Source of the DNA: Stenotrophomonas sp. UBA2302
GTDB lineage: Bacteria > Pseudomonadota > Gammaproteobacteria > Xanthomonadales > Xanthomonadaceae
Length of the DNA stretch: 30,749 nucleotides
Direction of reading: 5' to 3'
NCBI GenBank assembly: GCA_002345545.1
Contig: DDVW01000041.1
Span: forward strand, 1 to 30,749
In this document: positions 6,798-23,431 of the stretch, in pieces
Layout of the letters: every line of letters begins with the position of its first letter
Position numbering within the stretch: position 1 is the stretch's first letter
Program-made: the position numbers and the translations under genes
The notes under the pieces: model-generated
What the model was told of the DNA's origin: nothing
Seen by the model: the letters and a program-made list of their open reading frames with translations, nothing else
Database searches by the model: none

Positions 6798-7129
6798 AAC
6801 ACGGGACGCTTCGTCCGCCGACGGCGGTTGTGGCCTTGTCGCCTGAACCGGCAGCCCATGGAATGACTGGCTACAGCGGGGCGCTGCCCTGCTTCCATGC
6901 AATGGGCCGTTCGAAGACCGGCCGGAATGGCCCCGCCATTCCGGGGTGTAGGCCCCTGCTTGGCGGACTTCCTGCAGCTTGCCTGCGGTTTTGCAGCCGC
7001 CCCTTGGAGTTGGGTCCTGAGCCGCTGTTTCCGGAGCCTCCACGGCAGGCGCGCTCTACTCATTGCTGACGGTCGCGAGCCGGTCTGATGTCGTGTGTGG
7101 TGAGGTCGTCGGAAATCCTCTGCGGTGCC
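6798..7129. other. Divergent intergenic region with a 10-bp hairpin
   Basis: No gene is supported here. CCGGAATGGC (6922-6931) and GCCATTCCGG (6935-6944) form a perfect 10-bp stem with loop CCC, and GGGG/CCCC arms just after it (6943-6956) could extend the structure. There is no T tract, so it is not an ordinary terminator. It may be a palindromic repeat unit or a structured element in the gap between the diverging HNH and peptidase genes. Confidence 0.4.
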
Positions 7130-7168
7130 CTAGAATCGCCGGCAGGGACGGGAAGAAACGGGGAAGTT

Positions 7169-9145
7169 ATGAGAGCAGTGGTGCTGGGGTGGGTGCTGGT
7201 GCTGGTGGTGTCCACGTTCGCAGGCAATGCGCTGGCGGTGGACCTGGCGGCGTTTATCCGCAAGGACGATTTCAATGACATCCGCCTGTCGCCGACGGGC
7301 AAGTACTACGCCGCCACAGCGCCGCTCGAAGACAAGACCGCGCTGGTGATTTTCACGCGGGACGGCAACAGAATGTCGGGCAGCTTTGTTCCGGCGCGCA
7401 ATGCACACGTGAACGGGTTTGAATGGGTGAGTGACGAGCGGGTGCTGATCAGCATTGCCGAGAAGTTCGGCATGCTGGACCAGCCACGTCCCACCGGTGA
7501 AATCTATGCGGTCAACGCCGATGGCGGTCAGGCCGACCTGCTGGTGGGTTTCCGCGTGCAGGGGCGGGGGGCGGGGACGCGTATCCAGCCCAAAAAAGTG
7601 GAAAGCGTGGCGGCGTTCCTCGTGGACGGGCTGCCGGCCGATGAGCGCAACGTGGTGGTGTCGGTCTGGCCGCTGGGGCAGACCGAGCCGTTCACTCGTG
7701 CCGAGCGGCTGGATGTCATCAGCGGACGCCGCGCTACGCTGGCCTCCGCACCGGTGCGACGGGCGAGTTTCACCACTGACAATAATGGTGAAGTGCGGTT
7801 GGCGCAGGGCTCGGATGTGGACAACATCAGCAAGCTTTTCTACCGCGATGCGCGGGGCAGTGCCTGGCGGCTGGTCAGCAGTGGCAGTGCCGATGGCCGT
7901 ATCGATGAGCCGCTTGGTTTCTCCGCCGACAACAGCATTGCCTACCTGCGGGTGCGTGGCGACGGGAAGGGCCCGGACAGCATCGTGGCGTGGGATCCGG
8001 CCAGCGACAAACGCACCACTGTTCTGCGTGATACCCGGGCCGATCCGTGGAGCATCATTCACCGCAACGGCACCGCTATCCCGCTGGGGGCGCTGGTGAT
8101 GGACGGGCGCCACCGCAGCATGTTCTTCGATGAGAACGTGCCCGAGGCGCGTCTTTACCGCAGCCTGGAAGCGGCGTTTCCGGGTCAGTCGGTACGGGTG
8201 ACTTCCAGCACCAAGGACGGCCAGCTGCTGATGGTGAAAGTGTGGTCGGGCAGCAATCCGGGCGACTACTACGTATTCGACGTTGCCGCCAAAAAACTGG
8301 ATTTCGTGGTTGCCAGCGGCAGCTGGATCGATCCGGATACAGCGGCGACGGTGGAACCTTTCAGTTTCACTGCGCGCGATGGCCTGACGATCCATGGCTA
8401 CCTGACCCGGGCACGTGACGGGAGCGGCGCCGGGCCGATGGTGCTGATGCCACATGGTGGTCCCTATGGCATTTTCGACCAGTGGGAATACAACCGTGAT
8501 GCGCAGATGCTGGCCGCCGCCGGCTATACCGTTATGCAGGTGAACTATCGTGGCTCGGGCAACCATGGCTGGGCCTTCCGTCAGGCTGGCGCCCGTCAAT
8601 GGGGCGGTGCGATGCAGGACGACCTCACCGATGCCACCCGCTGGGCGGTGCGCGAAGGGCATGCCGATGCCAACCGCATCTGTATCTATGGCGCCAGTTA
8701 TGGCGCTTACGCCGCCCTGATGGGTGTGGCGAGGGAGCAGGAGCTGTACCGCTGTGCCGCCGGCTATGTCGGCGTGTATGACCTGCCGCTGATGCAGCGG
8801 GAAGACCGACGCACCGCGCGCAGCCTGGGCAACTGGTCCAGGGACTGGGTGGGAGAGGATCAGGCCGTGCTGGCGGCCGCTTCCCCCAACCGCTTCGCCG
8901 ACCGGATCAAGGTGCCGGTGTTCCTGGCGGCCGGCGGCGAGGATGAGATCGCCCCGGTCGAGCACACGCGGATGATGGAGGCGGCGCTGAAGAAGGCCGG
9001 AGTGCCCGTGGAGTCGCTGTATTACCCCACCGAAGGCCATGGCTTCTACACCGAGCCGCACCAGCGCGAGTACTACACGAAACTGCTGGCGTTCCTGTCG
9101 CGCCATATCGGCGGGCGTCACGCGCAAATTGACGTCTCGCCATGA
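7169..9145 (+). CDS. Secreted S9 family peptidase (prolyl oligopeptidase-like)
   Basis: A 658-residue exported serine peptidase. The signal peptide starts at MRAVVLGWVLVLVVSTFAG and ends at ALA. A long beta-propeller-like region follows (DIRLSPTGKYYAA), then a C-terminal alpha/beta hydrolase domain. The catalytic triad is Ser510 in GASYGAYAA, Asp592 in GGEDEIAP and His624 in EGHGFY. The family trims short peptides; the exact cleavage preference cannot be read. An ATG 27 codons upstream (7088) is open, but a TAGAAT box at 7130-7135 lies inside that extension and the signal peptide begins at 7169, so 7169 is chosen. The nucleophile elbow has Ala instead of the usual second Gly (GASYGA). It starts the peptide-scavenging region. 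Confidence 0.92.
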   Translation: MRAVVLGWVLVLVVSTFAGNALAVDLAAFIRKDDFNDIRLSPTGKYYAATAPLEDKTALVIFTRDGNRMSGSFVPARNAHVNGFEWVSDERVLISIAEKFGMLDQPRPTGEIYAVNADGGQADLLVGFRVQGRGAGTRIQPKKVESVAAFLVDGLPADERNVVVSVWPLGQTEPFTRAERLDVISGRRATLASAPVRRASFTTDNNGEVRLAQGSDVDNISKLFYRDARGSAWRLVSSGSADGRIDEPLGFSADNSIAYLRVRGDGKGPDSIVAWDPASDKRTTVLRDTRADPWSIIHRNGTAIPLGALVMDGRHRSMFFDENVPEARLYRSLEAAFPGQSVRVTSSTKDGQLLMVKVWSGSNPGDYYVFDVAAKKLDFVVASGSWIDPDTAATVEPFSFTARDGLTIHGYLTRARDGSGAGPMVLMPHGGPYGIFDQWEYNRDAQMLAAAGYTVMQVNYRGSGNHGWAFRQAGARQWGGAMQDDLTDATRWAVREGHADANRICIYGASYGAYAALMGVAREQELYRCAAGYVGVYDLPLMQREDRRTARSLGNWSRDWVGEDQAVLAAASPNRFADRIKVPVFLAAGGEDEIAPVEHTRMMEAALKKAGVPVESLYYPTEGHGFYTEPHQREYYTKLLAFLSRHIGGRHAQIDVSP

Positions 9146-9167: not shown

Positions 9168-9275
9168 GGTTGGTTGCGATGTCTGCGCACTGGTGGAGCC
9201 TTGTGCCGTTGGTTTTCCTGGACCGCCTGATCGGCGATGACCGGCTTTTGCATGCGTAAGTGGCAATCAAAACCC

Positions 9276-9297
9276 GGGTTTCTTCCGATGCAGGGTG
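9276..9297 (+). promoter_or_regulatory. Shared cluster element, copy A
   Basis: GGGTTTCTTCCGATGC, then GG and G at the conserved positions. It matches copies at 12036 and 15655 with no gaps: 16 of 22 columns are identical in all three. It lies 120 bases before the P1 aminopeptidase ATG at 9417. It is probably a binding site for a local regulator or a promoter element. Confidence 0.55.
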
Positions 9298-9416
9298 CCG
9301 GGCGGCGTGGCAGCATCGCGCTGCGACTTTATGGGTGAACTGGCCGCGTGTCAGAACCGATACAGCTTGCGGTACCGTGTTTAACGAGTCTGCAATTTAC
9401 GATTGAGGTGCATTGA

Positions 9417-10583
9417 ATGATCAAGGGCGGATCCATTCTTCTACTTGTCCTGGCGGCCACGAGCATGGGCGCGGATGCCAGTGAGCAGCGGCCGCGGGCG
9501 CGCGAGGCAGGGGTGGTGATCGGAACGTTGCCGACCGGGATGCACAACGCGATCACCGACGTGGCGGGCGTCGGTGTCGGCCATGCCACGCTGGTAGAGG
9601 GCACACGCCTGCATACCGGGGTCACTGCGATCCTTCCGCATGCCGGCAACCTGTACCGGCAGCGAGTGCCGGCAGCGGTCGTGGTAGGCAACGGCTATGG
9701 CAAGCTGGCCGGCATCACCCAGGTGCAGGAACTCGGGGAGCTGGAAACCCCGATCCTGTTGACGGGCACACTCAGTACCTGGAAAGTCGCCGACGCCACT
9801 GTGGACTGGCTGTTGCGACAGCCCGGCATGGAACAGGTGCGCTCGATCAATCCGCTGGTGGGCGAAACCAATGACGGCTATCTCAGCGATATCCGCGCGC
9901 GTCCGCTGACGCGGGCGCTGGTGGAAAAAGCATTGACGACACCGTCCTATGGCGAGGTCGAGGAAGGCGCTGTGGGCGCCGGTGCCGGTACAGTCGCATT
10001 CGGCTGGAAGGGGGGCATCGGTACCAGTTCGCGGCACCTGTCCGACACTGAGGGGGGGTACACGGTCGGCGTCCTGGTGCAGAGCAATTACGGCGGGGAG
10101 CTGACTATCGCTGGAGTGCCTGTCTGGAAAGTGTTGCCGGACCCGGCCGTGCACGCACGCAGCCTGGCGGTGCCGCCACCGAGCACTGGTGATGGCAGCA
10201 TCGTGATGGTGGTGGCGACCGATGCACCGCTGGATGCGGCGCAACTGCAGCGGGTGGCGCAACGGGCGTTGCTCGGGTTGGCGCGGACCGGCTCGGTTAT
10301 GTCCAACGGTTCGGGCGACTACGTCATCGCCTTTTCCACGGCGAAGGAAAACCGGCGTGATCCGGATGTGTCGCTGCAGCCGGCACGCAGTCTGGCCGGT
10401 GAAGCCATGTCGCCATTGTTCCAGGCCACGGTCGAGGCGACGGAAGAGGCCATCGTCAACTCGCTGTTCCGTGCGCGGACCGTGAAGGGGCATCGCGGTA
10501 CCGCTGCGGCGCTGCCGCTGGCACCGGTATTGGAGGCGATACGTCAGGCGACGCTGGCCGAACCGGACGATGCTTCGCGCTGA
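9417..10583 (+). CDS. P1 family (DmpA-type) aminopeptidase
   Basis: A 388-residue member of peptidase family S58 (DmpA, BapA, PhgA). These enzymes release N-terminal residues, and members are known for D-amino acid or beta-amino acid peptides. They are made as one chain that cuts itself before the nucleophile Ser. That site is visible as GDG/SIVMVVATDAPLDA, giving Ser261 as the expected nucleophile and start of the small subunit. Other family marks are NAITDVAGVGVGHATL, VGNGYGKLAG and GAGAGTVAFGWKGGIGTSSR. Residues 1-21 look like a signal peptide ending at ADA, so it should act in the periplasm or outside. It follows the S9 peptidase gene by 271 bases with shared-element copy A in between, so it is likely its own unit. 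Confidence 0.93.
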   Translation: MIKGGSILLLVLAATSMGADASEQRPRAREAGVVIGTLPTGMHNAITDVAGVGVGHATLVEGTRLHTGVTAILPHAGNLYRQRVPAAVVVGNGYGKLAGITQVQELGELETPILLTGTLSTWKVADATVDWLLRQPGMEQVRSINPLVGETNDGYLSDIRARPLTRALVEKALTTPSYGEVEEGAVGAGAGTVAFGWKGGIGTSSRHLSDTEGGYTVGVLVQSNYGGELTIAGVPVWKVLPDPAVHARSLAVPPPSTGDGSIVMVVATDAPLDAAQLQRVAQRALLGLARTGSVMSNGSGDYVIAFSTAKENRRDPDVSLQPARSLAGEAMSPLFQATVEATEEAIVNSLFRARTVKGHRGTAAALPLAPVLEAIRQATLAEPDDASR

Positions 10584-10764
10584 GTGATCGGGAGTTCTGC
10601 CGTTACCCTGCTGCCTTGTCTGCGGGCAATGGACATGCCATCCAGCCGGCTTTTATTGCTGAGGGCCGGCCTCTGAAGTTTGGAGTCGAGGTGCCCTGTC
10701 GTGCACTGCTCCCTTGCGCAGCAGCGCGCAGCCCAGACGGGAGGCGGGCTTTGCACGGGGCAGC

Positions 10765-11937
10765 TCAGTTGAGCAGTCGGGCCAGTTGCGTGCGGTTGGC
10801 GATATTGAGTTTGCGGAAGATCGAGCTGATCTGGCATTCGATGGTCTTACGCGAGCGGCACAGGCGTTCGGCGATGGCATCGTTGCGCAGCCCCGAGGCG
10901 ACCAGCCCGGCGACCTTGCGCTCGCTGGGCGACAGACATTTCAGCAAGGGCAGCGCCCGTGCCGAGGTGCCATCGAGCACTTCGTGAGCTTCACCGTCGG
11001 GTGCCAGGATCAGCAGGTGCTGGGCACGGCCGAAGGAATTTCCAGGTGCTGAGCTGATCTCCACGCGCAGCCGGCTTCCGGGGCGATGCGGATGGCCAAT
11101 GGCCAGCGGCGTGTGCTTTTCCAGTGACTGCGGCGCCTGCTCAAGCCAGCGCTGCAGCGGCTTCCTGATGGCGCCCGGCAGGTGCCCGGCACGTTCGGTG
11201 TCCGCACTCCATTGACGGCAGATGCGCTTGGCTTCGCGCGACATGTAGGAGGGCACGAGGTGTTCGTCCACCAGCACGGCGGCCAGCGGAAGCTCGTAGA
11301 CCAGGTTCTCGAACGCCTCATGACGCAGGCGGTCGGCCTCCAGTAAACGCACCCGCTGCAGGCTTGCGTCCAGCAGCGGATACAGCTCGGTGAGAAAGGC
11401 CAGCCCGGTTTGACCCAGTTCACTGTGCCCGTTGAGGATGCGGATGCTCAACACCGCTTCCAAGCGCGTTCCGTCCCAGAAAGCGAGGTGGATGAAGTCA
11501 TGCCATCCGGGCGCCGGATTCTGTGCCCGCAGCCGTGCAGGCGCATGCGCATCCTGCGAGGCGATCTGTGAAAACGTGTACCAGCGGATCTGCGGATTGG
11601 CATCCAGGTACGGAGCGGCGACCTCCAGGCTGGTCACCAGACCGGCGCAATCCTCGCGACCGGACGCCACGTGGTGCCGGCCCTGCAGCGGCTGGTAGTC
11701 GTCGATGTCAAACAGCAGGCTGCAGGAGTGGCAAGGCAGCGCCTTGTTGATCATCGCCGCACATGCCTGCCACAGCGTGGCCATGTCCAGGGCCTTCAGC
11801 AACGCTGCGCGCTCGGGGTGCAGGGGATCGGCATGGGCGGACGTGCGGCAGGCATCGAGAATCAACGGGGTGTCTCCAGAAGCGGGGCAGGCATCGGTAC
11901 AGCTGCAGGACAGGTGTGGGGTCCTTACGGTTGCCAC
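10765..11937 (-). CDS. LuxR-type transcriptional regulator
   Basis: A 390-residue regulator with a C-terminal LuxR/GerE helix-turn-helix at about 334-390 (LSPSERKVAGLVASGL, then AERLCRSRKTIE, then KLNIANRTQLARLL). The N-terminal 280 residues resemble a PAS/GAF-like sensor (CSLLFDIDDY, FIHLAFWDGTRLEAVLSI, FENLVYELPLAAVLVDEHL) that could bind a ligand. It has no receiver domain or clear autoinducer-binding signature. The start is unsure: the longest version uses a GTG at 11937 with no ribosome binding site and a Cys-rich first 24 residues, whereas a TTG at 11865 follows GGAG with suitable spacing. It is divergent from dgcN, and shared-element copy B lies in the gap. The obvious inference is that it controls the surrounding peptide and D-glutamate genes. 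Confidence 0.85.
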   Translation of the reverse strand: MATVRTPHLSCSCTDACPASGDTPLILDACRTSAHADPLHPERAALLKALDMATLWQACAAMINKALPCHSCSLLFDIDDYQPLQGRHHVASGREDCAGLVTSLEVAAPYLDANPQIRWYTFSQIASQDAHAPARLRAQNPAPGWHDFIHLAFWDGTRLEAVLSIRILNGHSELGQTGLAFLTELYPLLDASLQRVRLLEADRLRHEAFENLVYELPLAAVLVDEHLVPSYMSREAKRICRQWSADTERAGHLPGAIRKPLQRWLEQAPQSLEKHTPLAIGHPHRPGSRLRVEISSAPGNSFGRAQHLLILAPDGEAHEVLDGTSARALPLLKCLSPSERKVAGLVASGLRNDAIAERLCRSRKTIECQISSIFRKLNIANRTQLARLLN

Positions 11938-12023
11938 GCCCGTGTCGATGTGTAGCAGTGGCCCCGGGAGCGGGCAAGTGCCTGCTGGTCCTGGTCACGG
12001 AGGTGCTGTCGTTGGTTGCGGCG

Positions 12024-12057
12024 TCGGGAATATCCGGGTTTTTCCCGATTCGCGGGG
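12024..12057 (+). promoter_or_regulatory. Shared cluster element, copy B, with inverted repeat
   Basis: GGGTTTTTCCCGATTC starts at 12036 and is followed by GG and G at the conserved spacing. TCGGGAA (12024-12030) is the inverted partner of TTCCCGA (12042-12048), giving a 7-bp dyad that overlaps the element. The site lies between the divergent LuxR-type gene and dgcN, about 60 bases before the dgcN ATG, a good operator position. Confidence 0.55.
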
Positions 12058-12116
12058 GCAGTTGCTGTGTTCGAATGGAGGCTGTTGCGATATCAACAGG
12101 ACAAGGACAGGCAGCG

Positions 12117-13193
12117 ATGAAGCACACAGACAGCCAGCAGCCGGCGACAGTCACGGGCATGGACGGCAGCGCCGGCCAGTCGCCGGGCAGGCTGGTGTTG
12201 CGGATGCCGTATCTGTTGTTCCTCGGTGAGGAGACAAATCCGCTGAAGGCCAAGACCGCCTTCGGTCTGCGCGACTGGAGCGCACACAACTGCATCGGCC
12301 AGACGCGGCTGCCGGGCGGAATCATCGATCTGCAATTGCCGGAAATGAATCTGGCCACGGCAGTGCAGGCCGGCGCGCGCTCGTTGGTGATCGGTGTGAC
12401 CCCAGTGGGTGGGCGTATTCCCGAGCACTGGAGCCCGATGCTGGTGGCGGCAGCTGAGGCGGGCCTGGATATCGTCAGTGGCCTGCACACCGCGCTGGAG
12501 TCGGTGCCGGGCCTGGCTCTGGCGGCACAACGCAGCGGCACACGGTTGGTGGATGTGCGCCGGCCGCCGGACAACCTGCCGCGCGCCACTGGCAAGCGAC
12601 GCAGCGGCAAACGCGTGGCGATGGTCGGCACCGATTGCGCACTGGGCAAGAAGTACGCGGCACTGGCGCTGGCCAATGCGATGCGCGGGCAGGGCATCGA
12701 TGCCGACTTCCGGGCCAGTGGCCAGACCGGCATCATGATCGCCGGCACCGGTATTGCGGTGGACGCGGTGATCTCCGACTTCATTGCCGGGGCGGCGGAG
12801 TGCATTTCACCGGCGGCAGATCCTGAGCACTGGGATCTGATTGAAGGCCAGGGCTCGCTGTTCCATCCGGCCTACGCGGGGGTAACGCTGGGGCTGCTGC
12901 ACGGTTCGCAACCGGATGGGTTGATCCTGTGCCACGACCCCACCCGTACACATATCGTCAGCTGGCCAGAGTACTCCCTGCCGAGTTTGACTGTAGCCCG
13001 CGATCTGTACCTGCAGATGGCACGCATGACCAATCCGGGCGCGCGCCTGGTCGGAGTGAGCCTGAACACCTCGACGCTGGAAGAATCCGCCGCCCAGGAA
13101 GCGCTCGAGCGTGCTGAGCGCGAGCTGGGGGTGCCGGCATTCGATCCGATGCGCAGCCGGCTTGATCGCGCGGTCGCTTCGATCCTGGGATGA
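12117..13193 (+). CDS. dgcN: DUF1611 protein, probable D-glutamate N-acetyltransferase DgcN
   Basis: A 358-residue DUF1611 protein. It has PYLLFLGEETNPLKAKTA near 31-47, GQTRLPGGIIDL at 61-72, VIGVTPVGGRIP near 91-102, a P-loop-like GTDCALGKK at 171-179, RASGQTGIMIAG at 199-210 and EGQGSLFHPAYAGV at 243-256. Members named DgcN acetylate D-glutamate to N-acetyl-D-glutamate in a two-step D-Glu catabolic route with DgcA. The adjacent enolase-superfamily gene, seven bases after this stop, fits that pair. The start at 12117 follows AAGGA at 12103-12107. About 28 residues precede the family's usual start. The frame stays open further upstream but overlaps the regulator gene. The family call is firm; the substrate is inferred from the pairing. 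Confidence 0.85.
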   Translation: MKHTDSQQPATVTGMDGSAGQSPGRLVLRMPYLLFLGEETNPLKAKTAFGLRDWSAHNCIGQTRLPGGIIDLQLPEMNLATAVQAGARSLVIGVTPVGGRIPEHWSPMLVAAAEAGLDIVSGLHTALESVPGLALAAQRSGTRLVDVRRPPDNLPRATGKRRSGKRVAMVGTDCALGKKYAALALANAMRGQGIDADFRASGQTGIMIAGTGIAVDAVISDFIAGAAECISPAADPEHWDLIEGQGSLFHPAYAGVTLGLLHGSQPDGLILCHDPTRTHIVSWPEYSLPSLTVARDLYLQMARMTNPGARLVGVSLNTSTLEESAAQEALERAERELGVPAFDPMRSRLDRAVASILG

Positions 13194-13200
13194 GGCGGTA

Positions 13201-14184
13201 ATGACTTGCAAACTCCATGTACGGACCCATGCCTGGAAGTTGAAAGAGCCCTTCGCCATTGCCCGAGGAATTCGCAATGAAGCGCAGGTTGTCATTGTCG
13301 AACTGCACCAGGCGGGTGTGGTCGGGCGTGGCGAGGCGGGAGGCGTGGCCTATCGCGGTGAAACCCCGGAAAGCATGCGTACGCAGATCGAACAGGTGCG
13401 CGCGGAACTGGAGCGCGGTTGCAGCCGTCAGGAGCTGTTGCAGTTGATGCCCGCCGGCGGCGCACGGCATGCCGTGGACGCCGCGCTGTGGGATCTGGAG
13501 GCTCGACGCAGCGGCGTGCGAGCCTGGCGCAGCGCGGGCGTTGCGCAATGTCGGCCAGTGGAAAGTGCGGTGACCATCGGCATCCGTGATATCGCGGCCT
13601 ACGAGGCGGCAGCGCGTGCGTATGCCGACTACCCGTGGCTCAAAGTGAAGGTTGGCAAAGGCTCGCCGGTGGCGGCGGTGGCCGCGGTACGCCGCGGCGC
13701 GCCGGATGCACGGCTGATCGTCGATGCCAACCAGGCCTGGAGCGTGGCCGAACTGCTGGACTACGTGCCGGCGTTGCTACCGTATGCCGTGGACCTGCTG
13801 GAACAGCCGGTGCCGGTGGATCAGAGCGAAGGCTTGAGCGATTACGATGGCTCGATTCCGGTCTGTGCCGACGAGGCGCTGTCCACGCTGGAGGATCTGC
13901 CGGGGCTTGTCGGGCGCTACCAGTTCGTCAACATCAAGCTGGACAAGACCGGCGGTCTGACCGCTGGGCTGGAGCTGGCGCAAGCGGCGCAGGCGGCCGG
14001 ATTCCGGCTGATGGTTGGCTGCATGTTGGGCGGCTCGGTATCGGTCGCGCCGGGGATGGTCCTGGCGCAGTTGTGCGAGGTCTGCGATCTGGATGGGCCG
14101 TGGTTGCAGGCCGAGGACTGGCCGGATGGTATCGCCTATCAGCATGGGCGGATGGTGATGCCGGAGCCGCCGCTCTGGGGCTGA
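13201..14184 (+). CDS. dgcA: Enolase-superfamily epimerase, probable N-acetyl-D-Glu racemase DgcA
   Basis: A 327-residue member of the muconate lactonizing subgroup of the enolase superfamily. The acid/base Lys pair is visible in KVK (148-150) and KLDK (246-249). Metal ligands are Asp175 in DANQAW, Glu201 in LEQPV and Asp224 in ADEA. A DLDGP motif lies near 296-300. Relatives are L-Ala-D/L-Glu dipeptide epimerase (YcjG, YkfB) and DgcA, which turns N-acetyl-D-Glu into N-acetyl-L-Glu. Linkage to the DUF1611 gene favours DgcA. The D-x-D pair that binds the dipeptide amino group in true dipeptide epimerases is also present, so a dipeptide substrate remains possible. The start at 13201 is 7 bases after dgcN, with GAGGCGG before the ATG, so the two are an operon ending in the terminator at 14209. 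Confidence 0.85.
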   Translation: MTCKLHVRTHAWKLKEPFAIARGIRNEAQVVIVELHQAGVVGRGEAGGVAYRGETPESMRTQIEQVRAELERGCSRQELLQLMPAGGARHAVDAALWDLEARRSGVRAWRSAGVAQCRPVESAVTIGIRDIAAYEAAARAYADYPWLKVKVGKGSPVAAVAAVRRGAPDARLIVDANQAWSVAELLDYVPALLPYAVDLLEQPVPVDQSEGLSDYDGSIPVCADEALSTLEDLPGLVGRYQFVNIKLDKTGGLTAGLELAQAAQAAGFRLMVGCMLGGSVSVAPGMVLAQLCEVCDLDGPWLQAEDWPDGIAYQHGRMVMPEPPLWG

Positions 14185-14208
14185 GCTCGTTTGTAACCCA
14201 TTGATGGG

Positions 14209-14242
14209 GGCCGGTTGCAGCATGATTTGCAACCGGCCTTTT
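14209..14242 (+). terminator. Rho-independent terminator of dgcN-dgcA
   Basis: GGCCGGTTGCA (14209-14219) pairs with TGCAACCGGCC (14228-14238), an 11-bp stem with an 8-base loop and TTTT after it, 25 bases past the dgcA stop. It separates this operon from the convergent serine hydrolase gene. The minus strand has no T tract here. Confidence 0.88.
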
Positions 14243-14255
14243 CACTGTAGGGGGC

Positions 14256-15416
14256 TTAGTCCTGCGAACTGGACCACTCTACCGCCGGATAGCTGCCTTC
14301 ACCCATGAACTGTCGCAGTACCGGTTTGTAACTGGACGGGCCGTTCTCGCTGTTGGTAAGTAGGAGCAGGCTTTCGCCGCTCGCTGGATCGAGCATGAAA
14401 AAGGCCTTGAAGCCGGGGTTGTCACCCCAGTGCCATGCCAGGAGTCTGCCATCTGCCTGCTGCAGGCCAATGCCCAGACTCCAGCTGATGAACGGATCAG
14501 CGGCACTGGGCGAGGAACGGTCATCCGCATCGCTGGAAGGGGTGAACAGCAGGGCATGTGTTGCCGGCTGCAATCCTTCACCGCGATACAGCGCCCGCTG
14601 GATGAAGTTGTTGTAGTCATGGACATTGCTGACCAGTGTCCATGCGGTGTTCTCCCATGCCGTCACGAGACCGGGGATGGGCTCTCCGTCCTTGCGATGG
14701 CCGGTGGCGTTGCGCGTGGTGAATGCAGGATCGGCCTTGTAAGTGCTGCTGGGCATGTCGAAACGCGAAAACACCTCCCGCGTGGCCAGTGCGGTCCAAT
14801 CCAGGCCGGTGAGATGTTCGAGTGTGCGTTGCAGCAGGTAGAAACCTTCGCCGGAATAGGCGAAGCGGGCGCCAGGATCAAACAGGCTTTCCAGCGGGGT
14901 GTGGTCTATGGCCGGGTTGGAGGGGGAGATCTGCCAGTTGCGTAGACCGCTGGTGTGGTTCAGCGCCATGCGCGCGGTGATCTGACGGGCCAGCGGGTTG
15001 TCCTTGATCCGTTCCGACGGCCAGTAATCCCACAGCGGCGTGTCGAGGTCGAGTGTTCCCGCATCGACCAGCCGCAGGGCGATGTAGGCGCCGACAACCT
15101 TGGACAGTGACGCGGTCTGGAAGACGGTGCTGGCGTCTACCTGCGCGGTGGAGCTGCCACCCAGCACACCATGGCAATAGGTCTGGGTGATTCCATTACG
15201 GGTGTAAGCCAGTTGCGCGCCGGGAATAGCATGGGCCTGCATCGTTGCCGCGAATGCGGCCTGCCTTGCCTGGGTATTGCCGGCATCGGGCTGTGTGGAG
15301 GTGCTGCATCCGTGGCGGATATCCGAATCCGGATCAGGTGAATGTGCGTGCACCTGTCCTGCAGAGAACAGTGCGAGTGCGAGAGCAGCGATGCGTGGTG
15401 CCTGGATCTTCATCAT
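14256..15416 (-). CDS. Secreted serine hydrolase (beta-lactamase / D-aminopeptidase fold)
   Basis: A 386-residue exported member of the class C beta-lactamase-like family (Pfam beta-lactamase, MEROPS S12). A signal peptide covers about 1-24, ending AHA. The catalytic motifs are Ser103-L-S-Lys106, Tyr187-Ser188 in YSGEGF and the third motif His-Trp-Gly at 329-331 in HWGDN. Members include D-aminopeptidase, D-Ala-D-Ala carboxypeptidase and esterases; the motifs cannot separate them. Real beta-lactamase activity is not indicated, since no AmpR-type gene is nearby. A periplasmic D-amino acid peptidase would fit the neighbours (DmpA-type peptidase, DgcN/DgcA). The start is one of two adjacent ATG codons (15416 or 15413) after GGGGA. 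It is divergent from the TonB receptor gene, with shared-element copy C in between. Confidence 0.88.
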   Translation of the reverse strand: MMKIQAPRIAALALALFSAGQVHAHSPDPDSDIRHGCSTSTQPDAGNTQARQAAFAATMQAHAIPGAQLAYTRNGITQTYCHGVLGGSSTAQVDASTVFQTASLSKVVGAYIALRLVDAGTLDLDTPLWDYWPSERIKDNPLARQITARMALNHTSGLRNWQISPSNPAIDHTPLESLFDPGARFAYSGEGFYLLQRTLEHLTGLDWTALATREVFSRFDMPSSTYKADPAFTTRNATGHRKDGEPIPGLVTAWENTAWTLVSNVHDYNNFIQRALYRGEGLQPATHALLFTPSSDADDRSSPSAADPFISWSLGIGLQQADGRLLAWHWGDNPGFKAFFMLDPASGESLLLLTNSENGPSSYKPVLRQFMGEGSYPAVEWSSSQD

Positions 15417-15891
15417 TTCCCCGGCTGGTTCGGAAGGTTGTGTCGATCGCGCATTGCGACCTGCGCGAAGGGAGTTCCAGCAGGGAGGAAAGGTGCGGCA
15501 TGGACCCGGGCCGCAAACAGATCCAAGCCACCGGAGCGTTGCGACGATAACCCATCCAGTTACGGGTTGAAGCGTTCCGGAGACCTGTTTTCAAGTGGTT
15601 TCCGTTGTTACTTGTAGGTGCTGGGGAAACCAAGGGGAGACCGCTGAAGATTCGGGGTTTTTACCGATGCGTGGCGGCTTATGTCACGCCTAGGATCAAT
15701 GGCAGTTTCCGAGGAAGCGCGCTCAGTGCTGGAAGTTGCCAGTTCACACCTCGTGCGCCGGAGATTGTACGAACTATGTAGTGCAGACGTCGTTGCCGTC
15801 GGTGGCTTGAGCCGATTTTGTGCAACAGCCCGTCATTGCTATACCGCCATCCAGCCGATCCATGCCGAGTAGCCGGGGAGACGAATACACC
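15417..15891. other. Divergent control region, no gene
   Basis: This 475-base gap between the serine hydrolase (minus) and TonB receptor (plus) genes holds shared-element copy C at 15655. Nothing else is recognised. Open frames here lack ribosome binding sites and protein-like composition. The receptor's long leader is about 200 bases if transcription starts near the element. Confidence 0.5.
15655..15676 (+). promoter_or_regulatory. Shared cluster element, copy C
   Basis: GGGTTTTTACCGATGC, then GG and G at the conserved positions. It matches copies A and B without gaps. It is about 237 bases before the TonB receptor ATG and about 240 before the divergent hydrolase start, so it could serve both. 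Confidence 0.55.
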
Positions 15892-18759
15892 ATGTCCTTG
15901 CACCATCATCGTTTGCAACGCTGCCGCCTGGGGATGGCGGTTCTCGCCTCACTGGTATTGTCTGCGGGAACCACACAGGCACATGGGCTCGGGCAGGACA
16001 TGTTGCAGGATTCCGATGACAGCCCCACCGCAGCACGGACTCTGGACAAGGTCGAAGTCACTGGTTCGCGCATCAAACGCGCAGAAATGGAAGGTCCTTC
16101 ACCTGTGGTGATGATTACCGGGGAGGACATCAAAAAGCAGGGTTACAGCACCGTGGCCGAAGCGCTGCAGACCCTGACCCAGTTCAACGGCGATGTGGTC
16201 GGTGGTGAGCTCAATGCCAGCTCCACCCAGCCTGATGCCGCATTCCTCAACCTGCGTGGGTTGGGCGTTGGCTACCAGCTCATCCTGCTCAACGGCAAGC
16301 GCATGACCGAATATGCCGCCAGTTCTGGTGCCGCCTCCACCGGTGTCAGCGTCGGCAGTATTCCAGCGGTGGTGGTGGAGCGCATCGAAGTTCTCAATGG
16401 TGGCGCCTCGGCAATCTACGGCTCCGATGCGGTGGCCGGTGTGGTGAACATCGTCACCAAGGCGAACTGGGAGGGCAACCATCTGCGCATCCGCGGCGGA
16501 ACGACCACCAACGGCGGTGGCGACACCGGGCAGTTCCAGTTCAGTGGTGGCAAGAGCTGGGATCGCGGCAGCCTCACCTATGCCTTCGAGCAGCTTAACC
16601 GTGAGCCGATATTTTCCTGGCAGCGCGGCAACATCATCCGCACCGGCATGAACGCCCCCGGTAATGCTGGTACCGACAAACCCACCTTCGGGTTGGATAG
16701 CGCGTTGATGGACGCCAACTACAGTGATTACTACTGGCTGGGCGACAACGGCCAGCTGGTCTACGGCGGCGATATGGACGCCGCTTCCGCGGCGGCGGCG
16801 CTGGCACGTACCTGCCGCGCCATGGGCCGCAATTACTTCCCGATGTACGGCTCCTCCAGCAGCGCGTATCCGTACAGCTGTGGCAACGCGAATTACTACG
16901 ACGACGACACGCTGTCCAACAAGTACAACAAGACCTCGGCCTACGTGTCGGGCAACTTCCGCTTCAGCGATGCGGTCGAAGGCTACGGGCAACTGCTGGT
17001 GCAGCGCTCCAAGAGCGAGGCGGCGCACCGCACCAGCATGTACCTGTACAACGCCGGCAATGCCCATGATGTCACTATCGGCCAGTTCGAGTATTGGCGT
17101 GCGCTGGATCCCAATGAGATCGGCGGGGCACCAATGCGCGTGTGGGAGGAAACCACGCTCAGTGCCAATGTCGGTGTACGTGGCGCCATTGCCGATCGCT
17201 TCGACTGGGATGCCAGCCTCAGTCTGTCCCGCGATGAGATGAAAAGCAGCTGGAACCAGCTGATGACCGACCGCGTCAACCGCTATCTGTTCGGGGAAAA
17301 GCTGGGCGAGATCGACGGCGCGCCGCTGTACCAGCTCGATCCCTCGGTGTTGCTGGGGCCGGTCAGTCCGCAGCGATATGCTTCGATGACCGATACCTTG
17401 CGCAACCGCAATCTGTCGCAGACCGCACAGGCGCAGTTTGTTTTCAGTGGTCCGCTGTTCACCCTGCCTGCCGGCGATGTGGAAATGGCAGCGGTGCTGG
17501 AAGCCTCGCACTCCAAGTACGAATTGGGCCCGGACCGGCGTAGCGTCAGCACCTATGACGGTCCCGACCGCAGCTTCAACTTCACCGGCGTGGCCGGTGG
17601 CGGCCCGCGCGACCGCTATGGCGCCGGTGTCGAATTCCGGGTGCCGCTGATGGAACGGCTGGTGGCCAACGTGGCCGGGCGGTGGGATAAATATGACGAC
17701 ATCTCCGATGTCGGTGATGCCACCACCTGGCAGGCCAGCCTGGAATGGCGGCCATTCGACAATCTGTTGCTGCGCGCCAGCCGCCAGACCAGCTTCATGG
17801 CGCCGAACATCATGTGGTTGTACGGCGAGCCGGTCACCAATTACGACGACTACATCACCAACTACTACCTGTGCCGCGTGGATGGCCTGGACCTGACCAC
17901 CACCGCCGGTCTGGCCCAGTGCAGCAGCGACCACCATGAAAGTGCGTGGTACGTGGAAGGCGGCAACAACAGCCGCCTGCATGAGGAAACGGCGACCTCC
18001 AACGGGCTGGGCATTGTCTGGGACATCGCCCATGGGCTCTCGCTCAGTGCCGATTACTGGGAGATCAAGCTCAAGGGCAAGAGCCAGTATCTGGACACGG
18101 CGACGCTCATGAACGAGAACGCCAACTGCCTGCTGGGCAAGCGTGTGGACGGCACTGCCGTGGATCCCGACTCCGGCGCGTGTGCGATCTACCTGGACTA
18201 CGTGAAGCGCGACGCCGCAGGTGGTGTCACCGAGTACTTCCTCGATGCCATCAACCAGGCCGGCGTGCGCACCAAGGGCGTGGATGCCAGCCTGCGCTAC
18301 ACCTGGAACTGGACAACGCTGGGCGACTTCAGCCTGAACGCCGGTTACAGCCGCACCCTCGGCTATGACGTGCAGATGGCGGAGGGCGATCCGTGGCAGG
18401 ACTACATGGGGTGTTCCTATTCCTCCACCCACAGCTGTGGCAGCCAGCCGTTGGCGTTCCGCTCCCGTACCAACTGGACGCTGGGGTGGAACCGCGATGA
18501 CTGGTCAGCCAGTGTGTACGGCTACCGCAACGGGGGGCGCGTGAACTACCAGGCCACCGCCTATCTGCCGGGCTATGTGCAGTGGAATGCCAGTGTGTCG
18601 AAGAAAATCACCGGCAACATGCGCTTGGGCGTGGACGTGACCAACCTGTTCGACCGCTATGGACCGAACGATTCGACCATGACCTGGTACCCGTTCTACC
18701 AGAACATCTACGGCATCCAGGGCCGGGCGATCTACGTCAACCTCGATATCGATTTCTGA
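15892..18759 (+). CDS. TonB-dependent outer membrane receptor
   Basis: A 955-residue outer membrane receptor. A signal peptide covers about 1-30 (ending TQA). A TonB-box-like stretch LDKVEVTGSRI lies at 51-61 and the plug domain starts near 66 (PSPVVMITGEDIKKQGYSTVA), with LNLRGLGVGYQLILLNGKR, then ERIEVLNGGASAIYGSDAVAGVVNIVTK. The barrel fills the rest and ends in the typical aromatic terminus (NLDIDF, C-terminal Phe). Such receptors take up siderophores, vitamins, sugars or peptides using TonB-ExbBD energy. Its surroundings, peptidases and an OPT transporter, suggest a peptide substrate; nothing in its own sequence proves it. The start at 15892 is chosen because the signal peptide begins there. 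GGGGAG precedes it by 11 bases, and the upstream ATGs (15820, 15862) would add a non-signal stretch. Confidence 0.95.
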   Translation: MSLHHHRLQRCRLGMAVLASLVLSAGTTQAHGLGQDMLQDSDDSPTAARTLDKVEVTGSRIKRAEMEGPSPVVMITGEDIKKQGYSTVAEALQTLTQFNGDVVGGELNASSTQPDAAFLNLRGLGVGYQLILLNGKRMTEYAASSGAASTGVSVGSIPAVVVERIEVLNGGASAIYGSDAVAGVVNIVTKANWEGNHLRIRGGTTTNGGGDTGQFQFSGGKSWDRGSLTYAFEQLNREPIFSWQRGNIIRTGMNAPGNAGTDKPTFGLDSALMDANYSDYYWLGDNGQLVYGGDMDAASAAAALARTCRAMGRNYFPMYGSSSSAYPYSCGNANYYDDDTLSNKYNKTSAYVSGNFRFSDAVEGYGQLLVQRSKSEAAHRTSMYLYNAGNAHDVTIGQFEYWRALDPNEIGGAPMRVWEETTLSANVGVRGAIADRFDWDASLSLSRDEMKSSWNQLMTDRVNRYLFGEKLGEIDGAPLYQLDPSVLLGPVSPQRYASMTDTLRNRNLSQTAQAQFVFSGPLFTLPAGDVEMAAVLEASHSKYELGPDRRSVSTYDGPDRSFNFTGVAGGGPRDRYGAGVEFRVPLMERLVANVAGRWDKYDDISDVGDATTWQASLEWRPFDNLLLRASRQTSFMAPNIMWLYGEPVTNYDDYITNYYLCRVDGLDLTTTAGLAQCSSDHHESAWYVEGGNNSRLHEETATSNGLGIVWDIAHGLSLSADYWEIKLKGKSQYLDTATLMNENANCLLGKRVDGTAVDPDSGACAIYLDYVKRDAAGGVTEYFLDAINQAGVRTKGVDASLRYTWNWTTLGDFSLNAGYSRTLGYDVQMAEGDPWQDYMGCSYSSTHSCGSQPLAFRSRTNWTLGWNRDDWSASVYGYRNGGRVNYQATAYLPGYVQWNASVSKKITGNMRLGVDVTNLFDRYGPNDSTMTWYPFYQNIYGIQGRAIYVNLDIDF

Positions 18760-19046: not shown

Positions 19047-21014
19047 ATGAACAACGCTGCGCCTCGGCAGCTCACTTTCCGTGCGGTGGTGCTTGCCATC
19101 GTGCTGGCGGTGATCCTGTCCGCCGCCAATGCCTATCTGGGTCTGTTCGCAGGCCTGACCATCGCCACCGCCATCCCGGCGGCCGTCATCTCCATGGGCG
19201 TGCTGCGCCTGCTCGGCGGCGGCACCATCCTGGAAAACAATATCGTCCAGACCGGCGCCTCGGCCGGCTCGTCGATCGCCGCCGGTGTGATCTTCACCAT
19301 TCCGGCGCTGGTGATCATGGGCTATTGGCCCGATTTCAAATACTGGTGGGTGCTGGGCATCGCCGGGCTTGGCGGTCTGCTGGGCGTGCTGTTCTCGGTG
19401 CCGCTGCGGCGCTCGATGATCGTCGAGGACCCACTGCCGTTCCCCGAAGGCAAGGCCGCCGCCGAAGTGCTCAAGGCCGGTGAGAATCCCGGTCCGGGTC
19501 TGAAGATCCTCGCGCTGTCGGCGGTGATCGGTGCCGGCGTCAAGGTCGCCGCGGCCAGCGGCATGCGGCTGATCCCGGATACCTGGGCGCAGTCGGCCTA
19601 TGTCGGCAGTTCCAAGGTCACCGCTTTCATCGGCACCAACCTGTCGCCGGCGCTGCTGGGCGTGGGCTACATCGTCGGCCTGAACGTCGGCATCGTGGTG
19701 GTGTCTGGCGCCATCCTGTCCTGGCACATCGCCATTCCGCTGTACCAGGCGTTCTTCATCGACACCGATCCGGCGCTGGCCGCGCAGATCGCCGGCGCGT
19801 CTTCGGCCGATGCCGCGTTCGCCATCTGGGGCGCCAAGATCCGCTATCTGGGCGTCGGCGCGATGCTCATCGGCGGCATCTGGACCCTGTTCTCGCTGCG
19901 CAAGTCGCTGCTCAGCGGCGTCAAGAGCGGCTTTGCCGCCGCGCGCAAGAGCAGTGGCCCGGCACTGGACCACACCGAGCGCGACCTGCCGATGAAGTGG
20001 ATGCTGATCGCGCTGGTCGCCTTCGTGCTGCCGCTGCTGGGCCTGTACCAGGCCATCGTCGGCCAGTGGCTGGTGTCGATCCCGATGACCCTGATCATGA
20101 TCGTCGCCGGCTTCCTGTTCGTGTCGGTGTCGGCCTATCTGGCCGGTCTGATCGGCTCGTCCAACAACCCGGTCTCGGGCATCACCATCTCCACCATCCT
20201 GTTCGCCTCAGCGGTGCTGGTGGTGTTGCTGGGTGATTCGGGTCTGGAGAAGGTGGGTGTGGGCGGCGCACCGCTGGGTGCGGTGGCCGCGATCATGATC
20301 GGCGCGGTGGTGTGCTGTGCCGCCGCGGTCGGGGGTGACAACCTGCAGGATCTGAAAGCCGGCTACATCGTCGGCGCCACGCCGTGGAAGCAGCAGCTGA
20401 TGCTGGGCATCGGCGCGTTTTCCTGCGCGCTGATCATGGCGCCGGTGCTGAACCTGCTGGCCACCGCCTACGGCATCGGTGCGCCGACCGCCGAGCATCC
20501 CAACGCGCTGGCCGCGCCGCAGGCCAACCTGATGGCCTCGGTTGCCCGCGGCCTGTTCGGCGGCGAGTTGCCGTGGCTGTTCATCGGCATGGGTGCGGCG
20601 GTGGGCGCGGCGATCATCGCCATCGACGAATGGCTGAAGAAGACCGGCAAGCGCTTCCGCGTGCCGGTGCTGGCCGCGGCCATTGGCATCTACCTGCCGC
20701 TGGAGCTGATGGTGCCGATCTTCCTCGGCGGCCTGATCGCGCATCTGGTCGAGCGCTTCCACAAGATCCGCGCCGATGACGAAGCGGGCCGGGACCGCGT
20801 GCACAAGCCGGGCGTGCTGTTCGCCGCCGGCCTGATCACCGGCGAGGCACTGATGGGTATCGCCATCGCCATCCCGATCGTGATCAGCGAGCGGGCCGAC
20901 GTGCTGGCCGTGCCGGTACAGCTGCCGGCCGCGCAGTGGGTCGGCCTGGCCGTGCTGGCGGTGATCGGCTGGTTGATCTACCGCGTCGGCAAGCGCGCCG
21001 AAGCCAGGATGTAA
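19047..21014 (+). CDS. OPT family oligopeptide transporter
   Basis: A 655-residue inner membrane protein with about 16 predicted membrane helices, of the bacterial OPT family that imports small peptides with protons. Family marks are seen at the N-terminus (AVVLAIVLAVILSAANAYLG), then ENNIVQTGASAGSSIAAGVIF near residues 70-90, DPLPFPEGKAAAEVLKAGE, SSNNPVSGITISTIL and GEALMGIAIAIPI near the end. Length fits the family (about 620-700). The start has only AAAGG upstream but begins with a good helix. It follows the TonB receptor and precedes a second peptidase gene, supporting a route from outer membrane to cytoplasm for short peptides. A strong terminator follows at 21039. Substrates of bacterial OPT members are seldom proven, so peptide transport is inferred. 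Confidence 0.95.
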   Translation: MNNAAPRQLTFRAVVLAIVLAVILSAANAYLGLFAGLTIATAIPAAVISMGVLRLLGGGTILENNIVQTGASAGSSIAAGVIFTIPALVIMGYWPDFKYWWVLGIAGLGGLLGVLFSVPLRRSMIVEDPLPFPEGKAAAEVLKAGENPGPGLKILALSAVIGAGVKVAAASGMRLIPDTWAQSAYVGSSKVTAFIGTNLSPALLGVGYIVGLNVGIVVVSGAILSWHIAIPLYQAFFIDTDPALAAQIAGASSADAAFAIWGAKIRYLGVGAMLIGGIWTLFSLRKSLLSGVKSGFAAARKSSGPALDHTERDLPMKWMLIALVAFVLPLLGLYQAIVGQWLVSIPMTLIMIVAGFLFVSVSAYLAGLIGSSNNPVSGITISTILFASAVLVVLLGDSGLEKVGVGGAPLGAVAAIMIGAVVCCAAAVGGDNLQDLKAGYIVGATPWKQQLMLGIGAFSCALIMAPVLNLLATAYGIGAPTAEHPNALAAPQANLMASVARGLFGGELPWLFIGMGAAVGAAIIAIDEWLKKTGKRFRVPVLAAAIGIYLPLELMVPIFLGGLIAHLVERFHKIRADDEAGRDRVHKPGVLFAAGLITGEALMGIAIAIPIVISERADVLAVPVQLPAAQWVGLAVLAVIGWLIYRVGKRAEARM

Positions 21015-21038
21015 GTGCTGCAGCCGCCTTGTGTCTGA

Positions 21039-21072
21039 ACGGCCATCCCCGCTACGGCGGGGATGGCCGTTT
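21039..21072 (+). terminator. Rho-independent terminator of the OPT gene
   Basis: ACGGCCATCCCCGC (21039-21052) and GCGGGGATGGCCGT (21057-21070) make a perfect 14-bp stem with a TACG tetraloop, followed by a short T run. It lies 25 bases after the stop. Confidence 0.85.
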
Positions 21073-21268
21073 CCGGCGCCAGGAACCACGTAGTGCTCCA
21101 TGGGTGGGATCCACAACTGGCGTGGCTGGGCGAGATGGCCGGGCTCTCCCGCACCCTCCATCCCCCCGCATCAAGGACTTTGCCGGCTCCAGCCATGACT
21201 GATGGCCTTTGCACGCGCCGCGGTACCGCCCCTACCATCGGCGTTTGCCGTTTTTCCGGGAGATGCCC

Positions 21269-23335
21269 ATGAAGCTTCGTCACGCCCTGTTGCCGTTGTG
21301 CCTGCTTGCCGCCCTGCCTTCGCTGGCCACTGCGCGTGGTTTCGATGTCCGCGACATGGTCAAGCTGGACCGCGTGTCGGCACCGTTGTTGACCGCCAAC
21401 GGCGCCCAGGTGGTGTTCACCAAGCGCGTTGTCGATGCCGACCTGAAGGCCAGCAGCAGCCTGTGGATCCGTGACCTGCGCACGCGGGATCTGGCCCCGC
21501 CGCGCCAGTTCAGCCCGGAAGGCTGGAACGTCAACTCTGCCGCGCTCTCCGCTGATGGCCAGAGCGTGTATTTCCTCAGCGCCAGGAACGGTACCCAGCA
21601 GCTGTATGTGATGCCGCTGAGTGGCGGTACGCCGCGGCAGCTGACCGATTTCCCGGTGGACGTGGCCAGCTACCGGGTTTCGCCGCAGGATGACCGCGTG
21701 CTGTTCAGCGCCGATGTCTATCAGGATTGCGGCTCGGATCTGGCCTGCACCAGCAAGCGTCTTGAAGCCGGGAAGACCCGGAAGACCAGCGGTGAGCTGT
21801 TCGACGGCATCTTCGTGCGCCACTGGGACACCTGGGCCGACGGGCGCCGCAACACGCTGTTCGTAGCGCCGTTGCCGGCCGCCGGTGCGGCGGCAGTGCA
21901 GGGCGCCTCGGCGATCAGCGCCACCTTGGCCGGCGATGCGCCGTCCAAGCCCTTCGGTGGCAATGACGATTACGCCTGGTCGCCGGACGGCAAGTCGGTG
22001 GTGGCGTCGATCCGCGTGGCCGGCAAGCAGGAGCCGTGGTCGACCAACTTCGACCTCTACCGGCTTGATGCGGCTGGCAAGAAGGCGCCGGTCAACCTGA
22101 CCGCCAGCAACCCGGCCTGGGACACCGGCCCGGTGTTCAGCGCCGACGGCAAAACCCTGTTCTACCGTGCGATGAAGCGCCCGGGCTTCGAAGCGGACCG
22201 CCTCGGGCTGATGGCGCTGGACCTGGCCAGCGGCAAGGCCCGCGAGATCGCCCCGCAGTGGGACCGCTCTGCCGATGGCATCACCCTGTCGGCCGATGGC
22301 CAGACCCTCTACACCACCGCGCAGGACATGGGCGAGCACCCGCTGTTCGCGGTGAACATTGCCAATGGCGAGCCGACCAGGCTGGTGGGCGAGGGCAGTA
22401 TCTCGGCCTTCGACATCGCCGGAGATACGCTCACCTTCACCCGCAATTCGCTCAAGAGTGGCGACCAGGTGTTCACCAGCAGCACCACCGCCGGAGCGCC
22501 GCTGCGGGCCATCACCCCGAGTGCCGGTGAAATGCTCGAGGGCGTGGACTTCGGTGACTTCGAGCAGTTCTCGTTCAAGGGCTGGAACGATGAAACCGTG
22601 CACGGTTATGTGCTCAAACCGCACAACTACCAGGAAGGCAAGCAGTACCCGGTTGCGTTCCTGATCCACGGCGGCCCGCAGGGCAGCTTCGGCAATGGCT
22701 GGAGCTACCGCTGGAATCCGCAGACCTATGCCGGGCAGGGCTACGCGGTGGTGATGATCGATTTCCACGGTTCCACCGGTTACGGCCAGGCCTTCACCGA
22801 TGCGATCAGCCAGCACTGGGGCGACCGCCCGCTGGAGGATCTGCAGAAGGGCTGGGCGGCGGCGCAGCAGCAGTACCCGTTCCTCGATGGCGACAAGGCC
22901 TGCGCGCTGGGTGCCAGTTACGGCGGTTACATGGTCAACTGGATCGCCGGCAACTGGAACGAGCCGTGGAAGTGCCTGGTCAACCACAATGGCGTCTTCG
23001 ATACGCGCTCGATGGGCGCGGTGACCGAAGAGCTGTGGTTCACCGAGTGGGAGTTCGGCGGCACCGTGGCGGCCAATCCCGACGGCTATGAGGCATTCAA
23101 TCCGGCGCGGCACATCCACAAGTGGAAGGTGCCCACGCTGGTGGTCGCCGGCCAGAACGACTTCCGCGTACCGCTGGACCAGAGCCTGTCCACGTTCCAT
23201 ACCCTGCAACGGCAGGGGATCGAGTCGCAGCTGCTGTACTTCCCGGACGAGAACCACTGGGTGCTCAAACCGCACAACAGCGTGCAGTGGCATGACACGG
23301 TCAATGGCTGGCTGAAGAAGCATATCGGCCAGTAA
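21269..23335 (+). CDS. Secreted S9 family peptidase (DPP5-like)
   Basis: A 688-residue exported serine peptidase. The signal peptide covers about 1-24 (MKLRHALLPLCLLAAL, then TAR). A seven-bladed propeller region (PDGKSVVASIR, SADGKTLFYRA) precedes the hydrolase domain. The triad is Ser550 in GASYGGYMVN, Asp631 in GQNDFRVP and His663 in DENHWVLKP. The Asp-to-His gap of 32 residues and overall length agree with the DPP5 / acylaminoacyl-peptidase branch, which removes dipeptides from peptide N-termini; that sub-family call is an inference. The ATG at 21269 is chosen because GGGAG at 21258-21262 stands six bases before it; the ATG two codons earlier (21263) abuts that ribosome binding site. It is more distant from the first S9 gene than a recent duplicate would be. 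Confidence 0.93.
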   Translation: MKLRHALLPLCLLAALPSLATARGFDVRDMVKLDRVSAPLLTANGAQVVFTKRVVDADLKASSSLWIRDLRTRDLAPPRQFSPEGWNVNSAALSADGQSVYFLSARNGTQQLYVMPLSGGTPRQLTDFPVDVASYRVSPQDDRVLFSADVYQDCGSDLACTSKRLEAGKTRKTSGELFDGIFVRHWDTWADGRRNTLFVAPLPAAGAAAVQGASAISATLAGDAPSKPFGGNDDYAWSPDGKSVVASIRVAGKQEPWSTNFDLYRLDAAGKKAPVNLTASNPAWDTGPVFSADGKTLFYRAMKRPGFEADRLGLMALDLASGKAREIAPQWDRSADGITLSADGQTLYTTAQDMGEHPLFAVNIANGEPTRLVGEGSISAFDIAGDTLTFTRNSLKSGDQVFTSSTTAGAPLRAITPSAGEMLEGVDFGDFEQFSFKGWNDETVHGYVLKPHNYQEGKQYPVAFLIHGGPQGSFGNGWSYRWNPQTYAGQGYAVVMIDFHGSTGYGQAFTDAISQHWGDRPLEDLQKGWAAAQQQYPFLDGDKACALGASYGGYMVNWIAGNWNEPWKCLVNHNGVFDTRSMGAVTEELWFTEWEFGGTVAANPDGYEAFNPARHIHKWKVPTLVVAGQNDFRVPLDQSLSTFHTLQRQGIESQLLYFPDENHWVLKPHNSVQWHDTVNGWLKKHIGQ

Positions 23336-23404
23336 TGCGACCGATGGCGCCACGTGCCGGCAACCGCCCGTGCCGTGGCGCCGCGTGCTAGGCTGGCCAG
23401 CCTC

Positions 23405-23431
23405 ACGCCACGTTGTCCACGTGGCGTTTTT
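23405..23431 (+). terminator. Rho-independent terminator between the S9 and DUF819 genes
   Basis: ACGCCACGT (23405-23413) and ACGTGGCGT (23419-23427) form a 9-bp stem with a 5-base loop and a run of five T. It ends only about 30 bases before the ATG of the next gene, so it may also act as an attenuator in that gene's leader. Confidence 0.85.

Follow-up and report, generated by a model that had tools for sequence, protein, structure and literature searches.

A conserved intergenic element as candidate operator of a LuxR/FixJ-type regulator in a peptide and D-glutamate gene cluster of Stenotrophomonas

A short DNA element recurs ahead of three units of a peptide and D-glutamate gene cluster in Stenotrophomonas sp. 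UBA2302, and the question that it raises is whether these units form one regulon and, if so, which protein reads the element. The stretch analyzed here (contig DDVW01000041.1 of assembly GCA_002345545.1, 30,749 nucleotides; 'the window') carries, between two of the three copies, a gene for a LuxR-type regulator (luxR). The sequence comparisons reported below lead us to propose, with a probability of about 0.8, that the element is the operator of this adjacent LuxR/FixJ-type regulator, which would act by class II activation on a cluster-local peptide and D-glutamate regulon.

Three copies and their counterparts in related loci

A pattern search of the window finds GGGTTTNTNCCGATKC on the plus strand, without mismatches, at 9276, 12036 and 15655, as given in a preliminary description of this DNA; the ungapped alignment reported there, with 16 of 22 columns identical among the copies, was reproduced, and the gene map agrees that none lies in coding sequence. 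Copy A is located 130 bp past the stop codon of an S9 peptidase gene and 127 bp ahead of the ATG of an S58 aminopeptidase gene, copy B within the gap between luxR and dgcN, and copy C in the gap between a beta-lactamase-family gene and a TonB-dependent receptor gene. Elsewhere in the window no place matches GGGTTTNTNCCGATKCNNGGNG at three or fewer mismatches. Shuffled windows gave a mean of 0.19 matches at this threshold and none of 100 shuffles yielded three, a figure that is partly circular, the pattern having been derived from the same three copies. Because the pattern was read off those copies, the real test must come from related loci.

A search of 395 genomes of the bacterial family (E value at most 1e-20) found the LuxR family in 13, one of which has two copies, and stretches of up to 20 kb were taken around the matches; the genome-wide counts given here thus come from relatives of the window organism, and gene calls at the neighbouring loci are crude. 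In the resulting location-defined set (27 gaps from the window and 11 related loci), a site with at most one mismatch to GGGTTTNTNCCGAT lies ahead of dgcN in 12 of 12 cases, i.e. in the window and in all 11 related loci in which dgcN adjoins the LuxR gene, and in all 12 luxR/dgcN gaps it is oriented toward dgcN. The same holds, at up to one mismatch, before six of the seven orthologous TonB receptors; the seventh (locus L102) has three mismatches, with TAGCAT still downstream. Five of eight linked S58 genes have a site with two or fewer mismatches, and in the reverse orientation none of the 27 gaps has a match with fewer than three. Both copies at one locus (L063:10542 and L063:15337, genome G006) share the core variant CTGAT for CCGAT, as if they had drifted together.

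The Pseudoxanthomonas yeongjuensis locus (L001), which was found via its LuxR protein (70% identity), has the element ahead of dgcN and ahead of the orthologous receptor. In its 3.9-Mb genome the 16-base GGGTTTNTNCCGATNC has two exact matches, both in the cluster, and none with one mismatch; the remaining matches listed carry two. The preliminary description had asked whether copies are numerous in unrelated places of a genome and whether they are conserved upstream of orthologues; the former is not seen in P. yeongjuensis, and the element is kept before dgcN, the receptors and most S58 genes. Its proposal of one regulon with the LuxR-type gene as candidate regulator is supported, in that the element is conserved before orthologues and tracks the LuxR gene.

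This tracking is clearest where orthologous genes with and without the regulator are set side by side. Among 30 dgcN loci examined, from matches in 93 genomes, the element is present in 11 of 11 with an adjacent LuxR gene versus none of 19 without (best matches with 3-5 mismatches); one of the latter, 69% identical, comes from a genome (G017) with a LuxR relative on another contig, beside a receptor. For the S58 genes, 30 loci were likewise taken from matches in 93 genomes and scored with a matrix built from 18 typed sites (the dgcN and receptor sites plus window copy A); one locus (L186) had no upstream sequence, leaving eight with and 21 without a LuxR gene in the genome. Five of the eight have a strong element with a -10-like hexamer and a sixth (G006, score 7.5) is weak, and the other two either follow a receptor (G248) or stand divergent to a receptor-facing element (G067). 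The combination of element and hexamer occurs in none of the 21 LuxR-negative cases, two of which score 9.8 and 8.2 but have no -10.

Across the 395 genomes, GGGTTTYYNCYGAT followed after 21-22 nt by TANNAT occurs at 10 sites in nine genomes (one match for the reversed pattern), these being nine of the 13 genomes with the LuxR family versus none of the 382 without; the remaining four of the 13 also have the element, either with another hexamer or with one core change. Fisher's test, which ignores kinship, gives 1e-15 for the genome contrast and 2e-8 for the dgcN contrast. When the looser 14-base GGGTTTYYNCYGAT alone is sought in the 13 LuxR genomes there are 30 matches versus one for the reversed pattern, and requiring AT at the fixed spacing leaves 14 versus none. 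Split by eye, 23 of the 30 have a -10-like hexamer, and the seven that have none are read as chance matches.

The element also persists where the genes behind it change. In three genomes (G417, G457 and G067; loci L214, L216 and L215) a different TonB receptor, 28-30% identical to that of the window versus 69-84% in six orthologous loci, lies behind the element, divergent from S58, with element and TAGNAT kept; in G067 this receptor site is on a different short contig from luxR. The order in G248 (L105:5038-8282) is element, receptor, S58, and its near-identical relative G208 (L106:9301-11675) has no receptor in a 19.9-kb stretch, such that the promoter that precedes the receptor in G248 stands directly ahead of S58 in G208. 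LuxR relatives at L065, L108 and L109 (45-47% identity) adjoin yet other TonB receptors, with the element present and dgcN absent. Since the element is kept with exchanged or absent receptors and without dgcN, we argue that it is probably this LuxR family's own promoter module rather than something that conserved gene order has carried along. The L065 neighbourhood includes an S9 peptidase gene, and that of L108 an SSF symporter gene and a beta-lactamase-family gene.

Anatomy of the element and promoter geometry

Twenty-eight curated sites define the conserved element as WTCS-GGGTTTYYNCCGAT-KC. Its strongest dyad axis falls between core positions 5 and 6, with a paired fraction of 0.54 as against 0.40 for the runner-up, so that ATCSGG and CCCGAT form the half-sites on either side of GTTTYT in a 22-bp imperfect palindrome. 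This differs in two respects from the preliminary description. The GGNG tail assigned to the element there is not part of it, columns 19-22 holding only 0.2-0.6 bit against a uniform background. The 7-bp inverted repeat noted at copy B (TCGGGAA/TTCCCGA) does exist, but the related dgcN sites do not retain the left arm, and we have rejected this repeat as a key feature.

A TANNAT-like hexamer, absent from the preliminary description, lies 21-22 nt past the GAT of the element. Its type varies with the gene behind it: most receptors have TAGNAT, most S58 genes CAGCAT (at the same 21-nt spacing in the S58 gaps of L001, L101, L102 and L103), and dgcN has TCGAAT or similar. At 21 location-defined sites, the -10-like match at this offset averages 3.29 of 4 versus a mean of 1.07 elsewhere (z 10.7), after removal of the four of 27 gaps whose best match had more than two mismatches and of two near-duplicate L106 sites. 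A version with 26 curated sites, from which the two L106 sites and the seven matches with no -10 had been left out, gave z 10.9 and is biased by that choice, the former value being the cleaner. No sigma-70 promoter with a -35/-10 pair was found at the sites on the plus strand of 9140-16000. With the hexamer set as -12 to -7, arithmetic places the dyad centre at -42.5 or -43.5 relative to the predicted start; a -10-like hexamer at 21-22 nt with no sigma-70-like -35 would thus put the dyad at the position of a class II activator.

These features suggest a mechanism in which a dimer of the LuxR-type protein would bind the 22-bp imperfect palindrome, whose centre would occupy the place of the missing -35 some 42.5-43.5 bp ahead of the predicted start, and would recruit sigma-70 polymerase to the -10 hexamer. 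As targets we predict dgcNA, the S58 aminopeptidase gene and the TonB-dependent receptor unit, which would together form a small local regulon for scavenging peptides and D-glutamate, and activation may be responsive to a ligand. It is because the sites co-occur with the protein in relatives that the three window copies look like its docking sites.

Alternative readings

Several observations fit this proposal less well. The core is asymmetric, with GGGTTT invariant or nearly so, and copy A is a poor dyad; the TCGAAT hexamer before dgcN is weak as a -10. At the S58 genes of L001 and L063 the site shows three mismatches, and L105, where S58 follows the receptor by 167 bp in the same orientation, has no element (best four mismatches). 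The G006 S58 site scores lower than the two LuxR-negative S58 genes, both of which are without a -10, and seven of the 30 core matches in the 13 genomes also have none. The genome contrasts are uncorrected for kinship. With respect to the protein, the PAS-like assignment is weak, the best Pfam PAS match being below cut-off (E 0.009) in one of five proteins, and there is no full-length structural match, the TM-score by query being at most 0.38 among the 50 matches listed.

The readings that compete with activation by the LuxR-type protein account for parts of this evidence. The same protein might repress from the same sites, covering the -35 region until an inducer releases it; the conservation evidence fits this equally well, and the overlap of the site with the -35 region matches a position that repressors also use. 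We consider it unlikely, since promoters with no sigma-70-like -35 seem too weak to require a repressor, and since the fixed 21-22 nt to the -10 is as expected for contact with polymerase. That some other, unlinked regulator binds the element, the LuxR-type gene merely travelling with the cluster, would be in keeping with the location of that gene inside the cluster, where co-inheritance could mimic a functional link. It is, however, difficult to reconcile with dgcN and S58 genes that are without the element when the LuxR gene is absent, with the paralogous LuxR loci that have no dgcN yet keep the element before other receptors, or with the agreement between the LuxR family and element plus TANNAT across the 395 genomes, and we regard it as very improbable.

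A strongly conserved asymmetric core at a fixed distance from a -10-like hexamer is also what the promoter of an alternative sigma factor would look like. The -35 and -10 elements of known sigma factors are spaced by 15-19 nt, a range that the 21-22 nt separating core from hexamer exceeds; moreover, the element has a dyad and no sigma-factor gene was seen among the window genes scanned, which leaves this reading with hardly any likelihood. Least credible of all is chance resemblance among the three sites, which gains something from the pattern having been taken from the copies themselves, but is refuted by the related loci, with retention in 11 further ones and absence from matched controls, and is at odds with the excess of core matches over reversed ones in the 13 genomes.

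The regulator, its cluster and related systems

The window LuxR-type protein is 100% identical to a database entry (P0001) encoded on an 8.9-kb JGI contig, from the length of which entry its TTG start is inferred; among named relatives the closest (74%) belong to Stenotrophomonas. A C-terminal GerE helix-turn-helix (HTH) domain scores above cut-off in it (PF00196, 46.3 bits versus 23.5) and in the four other relatives scanned, making it a member of the LuxR/FixJ (GerE) transcription factors. A GAF-type fold is predicted in the N-terminal part, and a PAS-like fold is tentatively assigned to the middle part, PAS proteins being among the Foldseek matches; in this assignment, residues beyond 289 were barely covered by one structure comparison. 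Pfam gave no match to an autoinducer-binding domain at E values up to 1, and none to a receiver domain, in any of the five LuxR-type proteins scanned, and the quorum-sensing protein SdiA appears only at rank 49 in the Foldseek list; by Pfam domain content the regulator is neither a quorum-sensing LuxR protein nor a two-component response regulator. A search of a plasmid collection ('near' mode) returned no match to the luxR gene.

Table 1. Coordinates of the element copies, predicted hexamers and genes in the window
Feature	Position	Strand	Remarks
S9 peptidase	7088..9145	+	
Copy A, ahead of S58 aminopeptidase	9270..9291 (core 9276-9289)	+	Dyad weak
Predicted -10 hexamer CAGCAT, S58	9311..9316	+	21 nt past copy A core
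S58 (DmpA/P1-type) aminopeptidase	9417..10583	+	PF03576; proposed target
LuxR-type regulator, 366 aa	10765..11865	-	TTG start; predicted GAF + PAS-like + GerE HTH
Copy B, luxR/dgcN gap	12030..12051 (core 12036-12049)	+	Half-sites ATCCGG 12032-12037, CCCGAT 12044-12049
Predicted -10 hexamer TCGAAT, dgcN	12071..12076	+	21 nt past copy B core
dgcN (DUF1611)	12117..13193	+	Proposed target
dgcA (enolase superfamily)	13201..14184	+	N-acetyl-D-Glu racemase model above cut-off
Beta-lactamase-family hydrolase	14256..15416	-	Divergent from receptor
Copy C, ahead of TonB receptor	15649..15670 (core 15655-15668)	+	
Predicted -10 hexamer TAGGAT, receptor	15691..15696	+	22 nt past copy C core
TonB-dependent receptor	15892..18759	+	PF00593, PF07715; proposed target
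OPT oligopeptide transporter, second S9 peptidase, DUF819 protein	19047..24714	+	

The cluster genes are listed in Table 1. DgcA scores above its NCBIfam cut-off (407.1 versus 400), whereas DgcN is below its curated one (452.4 versus 480), with a full-length match at E 7.5e-136. The upstream gaps of the OPT transporter, second S9 peptidase and DUF819 genes have no element at three or fewer mismatches, and these genes are perhaps transcribed from the receptor promoter. In L100 a relative of the first S9 peptidase (74% identity) is encoded downstream of the TonB receptor, with the same orientation. In P. yeongjuensis a sodium:dicarboxylate symporter family gene lies past dgcA in the same direction (L001:6241-7545), which suggests that the dgc unit there includes a glutamate-type importer.

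The GAF or PAS-like part of the regulator probably senses a metabolite of the peptide and D-glutamate diet. More tentatively, we raise the possibility that this GAF-PAS LuxR-type family in Xanthomonadaceae-type bacteria senses a D-glutamate-bearing peptide, such as a peptidoglycan fragment, and activates a portable 'operator + TAGNAT' promoter, which remains fixed while the outer-membrane receptor behind it is swapped or lost. If so, the family would sense muropeptide-type food inside the cell, as a nutrient sensor distinct from AmpR-type sensing. If our proposal as a whole is right, D-glutamate catabolism, TonB-dependent peptide import and peptidases would belong to one regulon, and an apparently unstudied regulator family would gain a precise predicted operator, promoter geometry and target list; the motif may also help in guessing what other TonB receptors adjoining such regulators do. 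Among the open-access papers listed, none has a title or abstract opening that describes the regulator or the element, which is weak evidence of absence.

With respect to known systems, the geometry proposed here resembles class II activation by LuxR-type proteins. The lux box at the luxI promoter takes the place of the -35, its centre being near -42.5, and a palindromic site replacing the -35 near that position, as placed here from a predicted start, would be the shared feature; unlike in the lux system, there is no Pfam autoinducer-binding domain, and the operator sequence differs. EL222, which combines a LOV/PAS domain with a LuxR-type HTH and is light-activated according to the title of its description, is the best match of the regulator both by sequence profile and by Foldseek, but the sequence match is confined to the HTH end (query residues 294-368) and EL222 has no GAF domain. 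The window shares the dgcN-dgcA pair with the DgcN-DgcA pathway, in which DgcA has a role in the conversion of D-glutamate to L-glutamate (PMC10845958, PMC12363236); the available portions of these accounts name no LuxR-type regulator, and in the window the two genes are associated with peptidases, a TonB receptor and a LuxR-type gene.

VqmA of Vibrio and of phage VP882 likewise joins a sensor domain (PAS) to a LuxR-type HTH and is an activator at a palindrome, and VqmA chains are among the Foldseek matches of the regulator, the kinship being seen at the level of the HTH family only. The protein described here differs in having a GAF-like domain ahead of the PAS-like one, uptake and catabolic genes as its proposed targets, and half-sites of the form ATCSGG/CCCGAT. 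According to the available part of its description, VqmA requires an 18-bp site with a GG-N6-CC palindrome (PMC8284805), a form in which the core of the present element may also be read.

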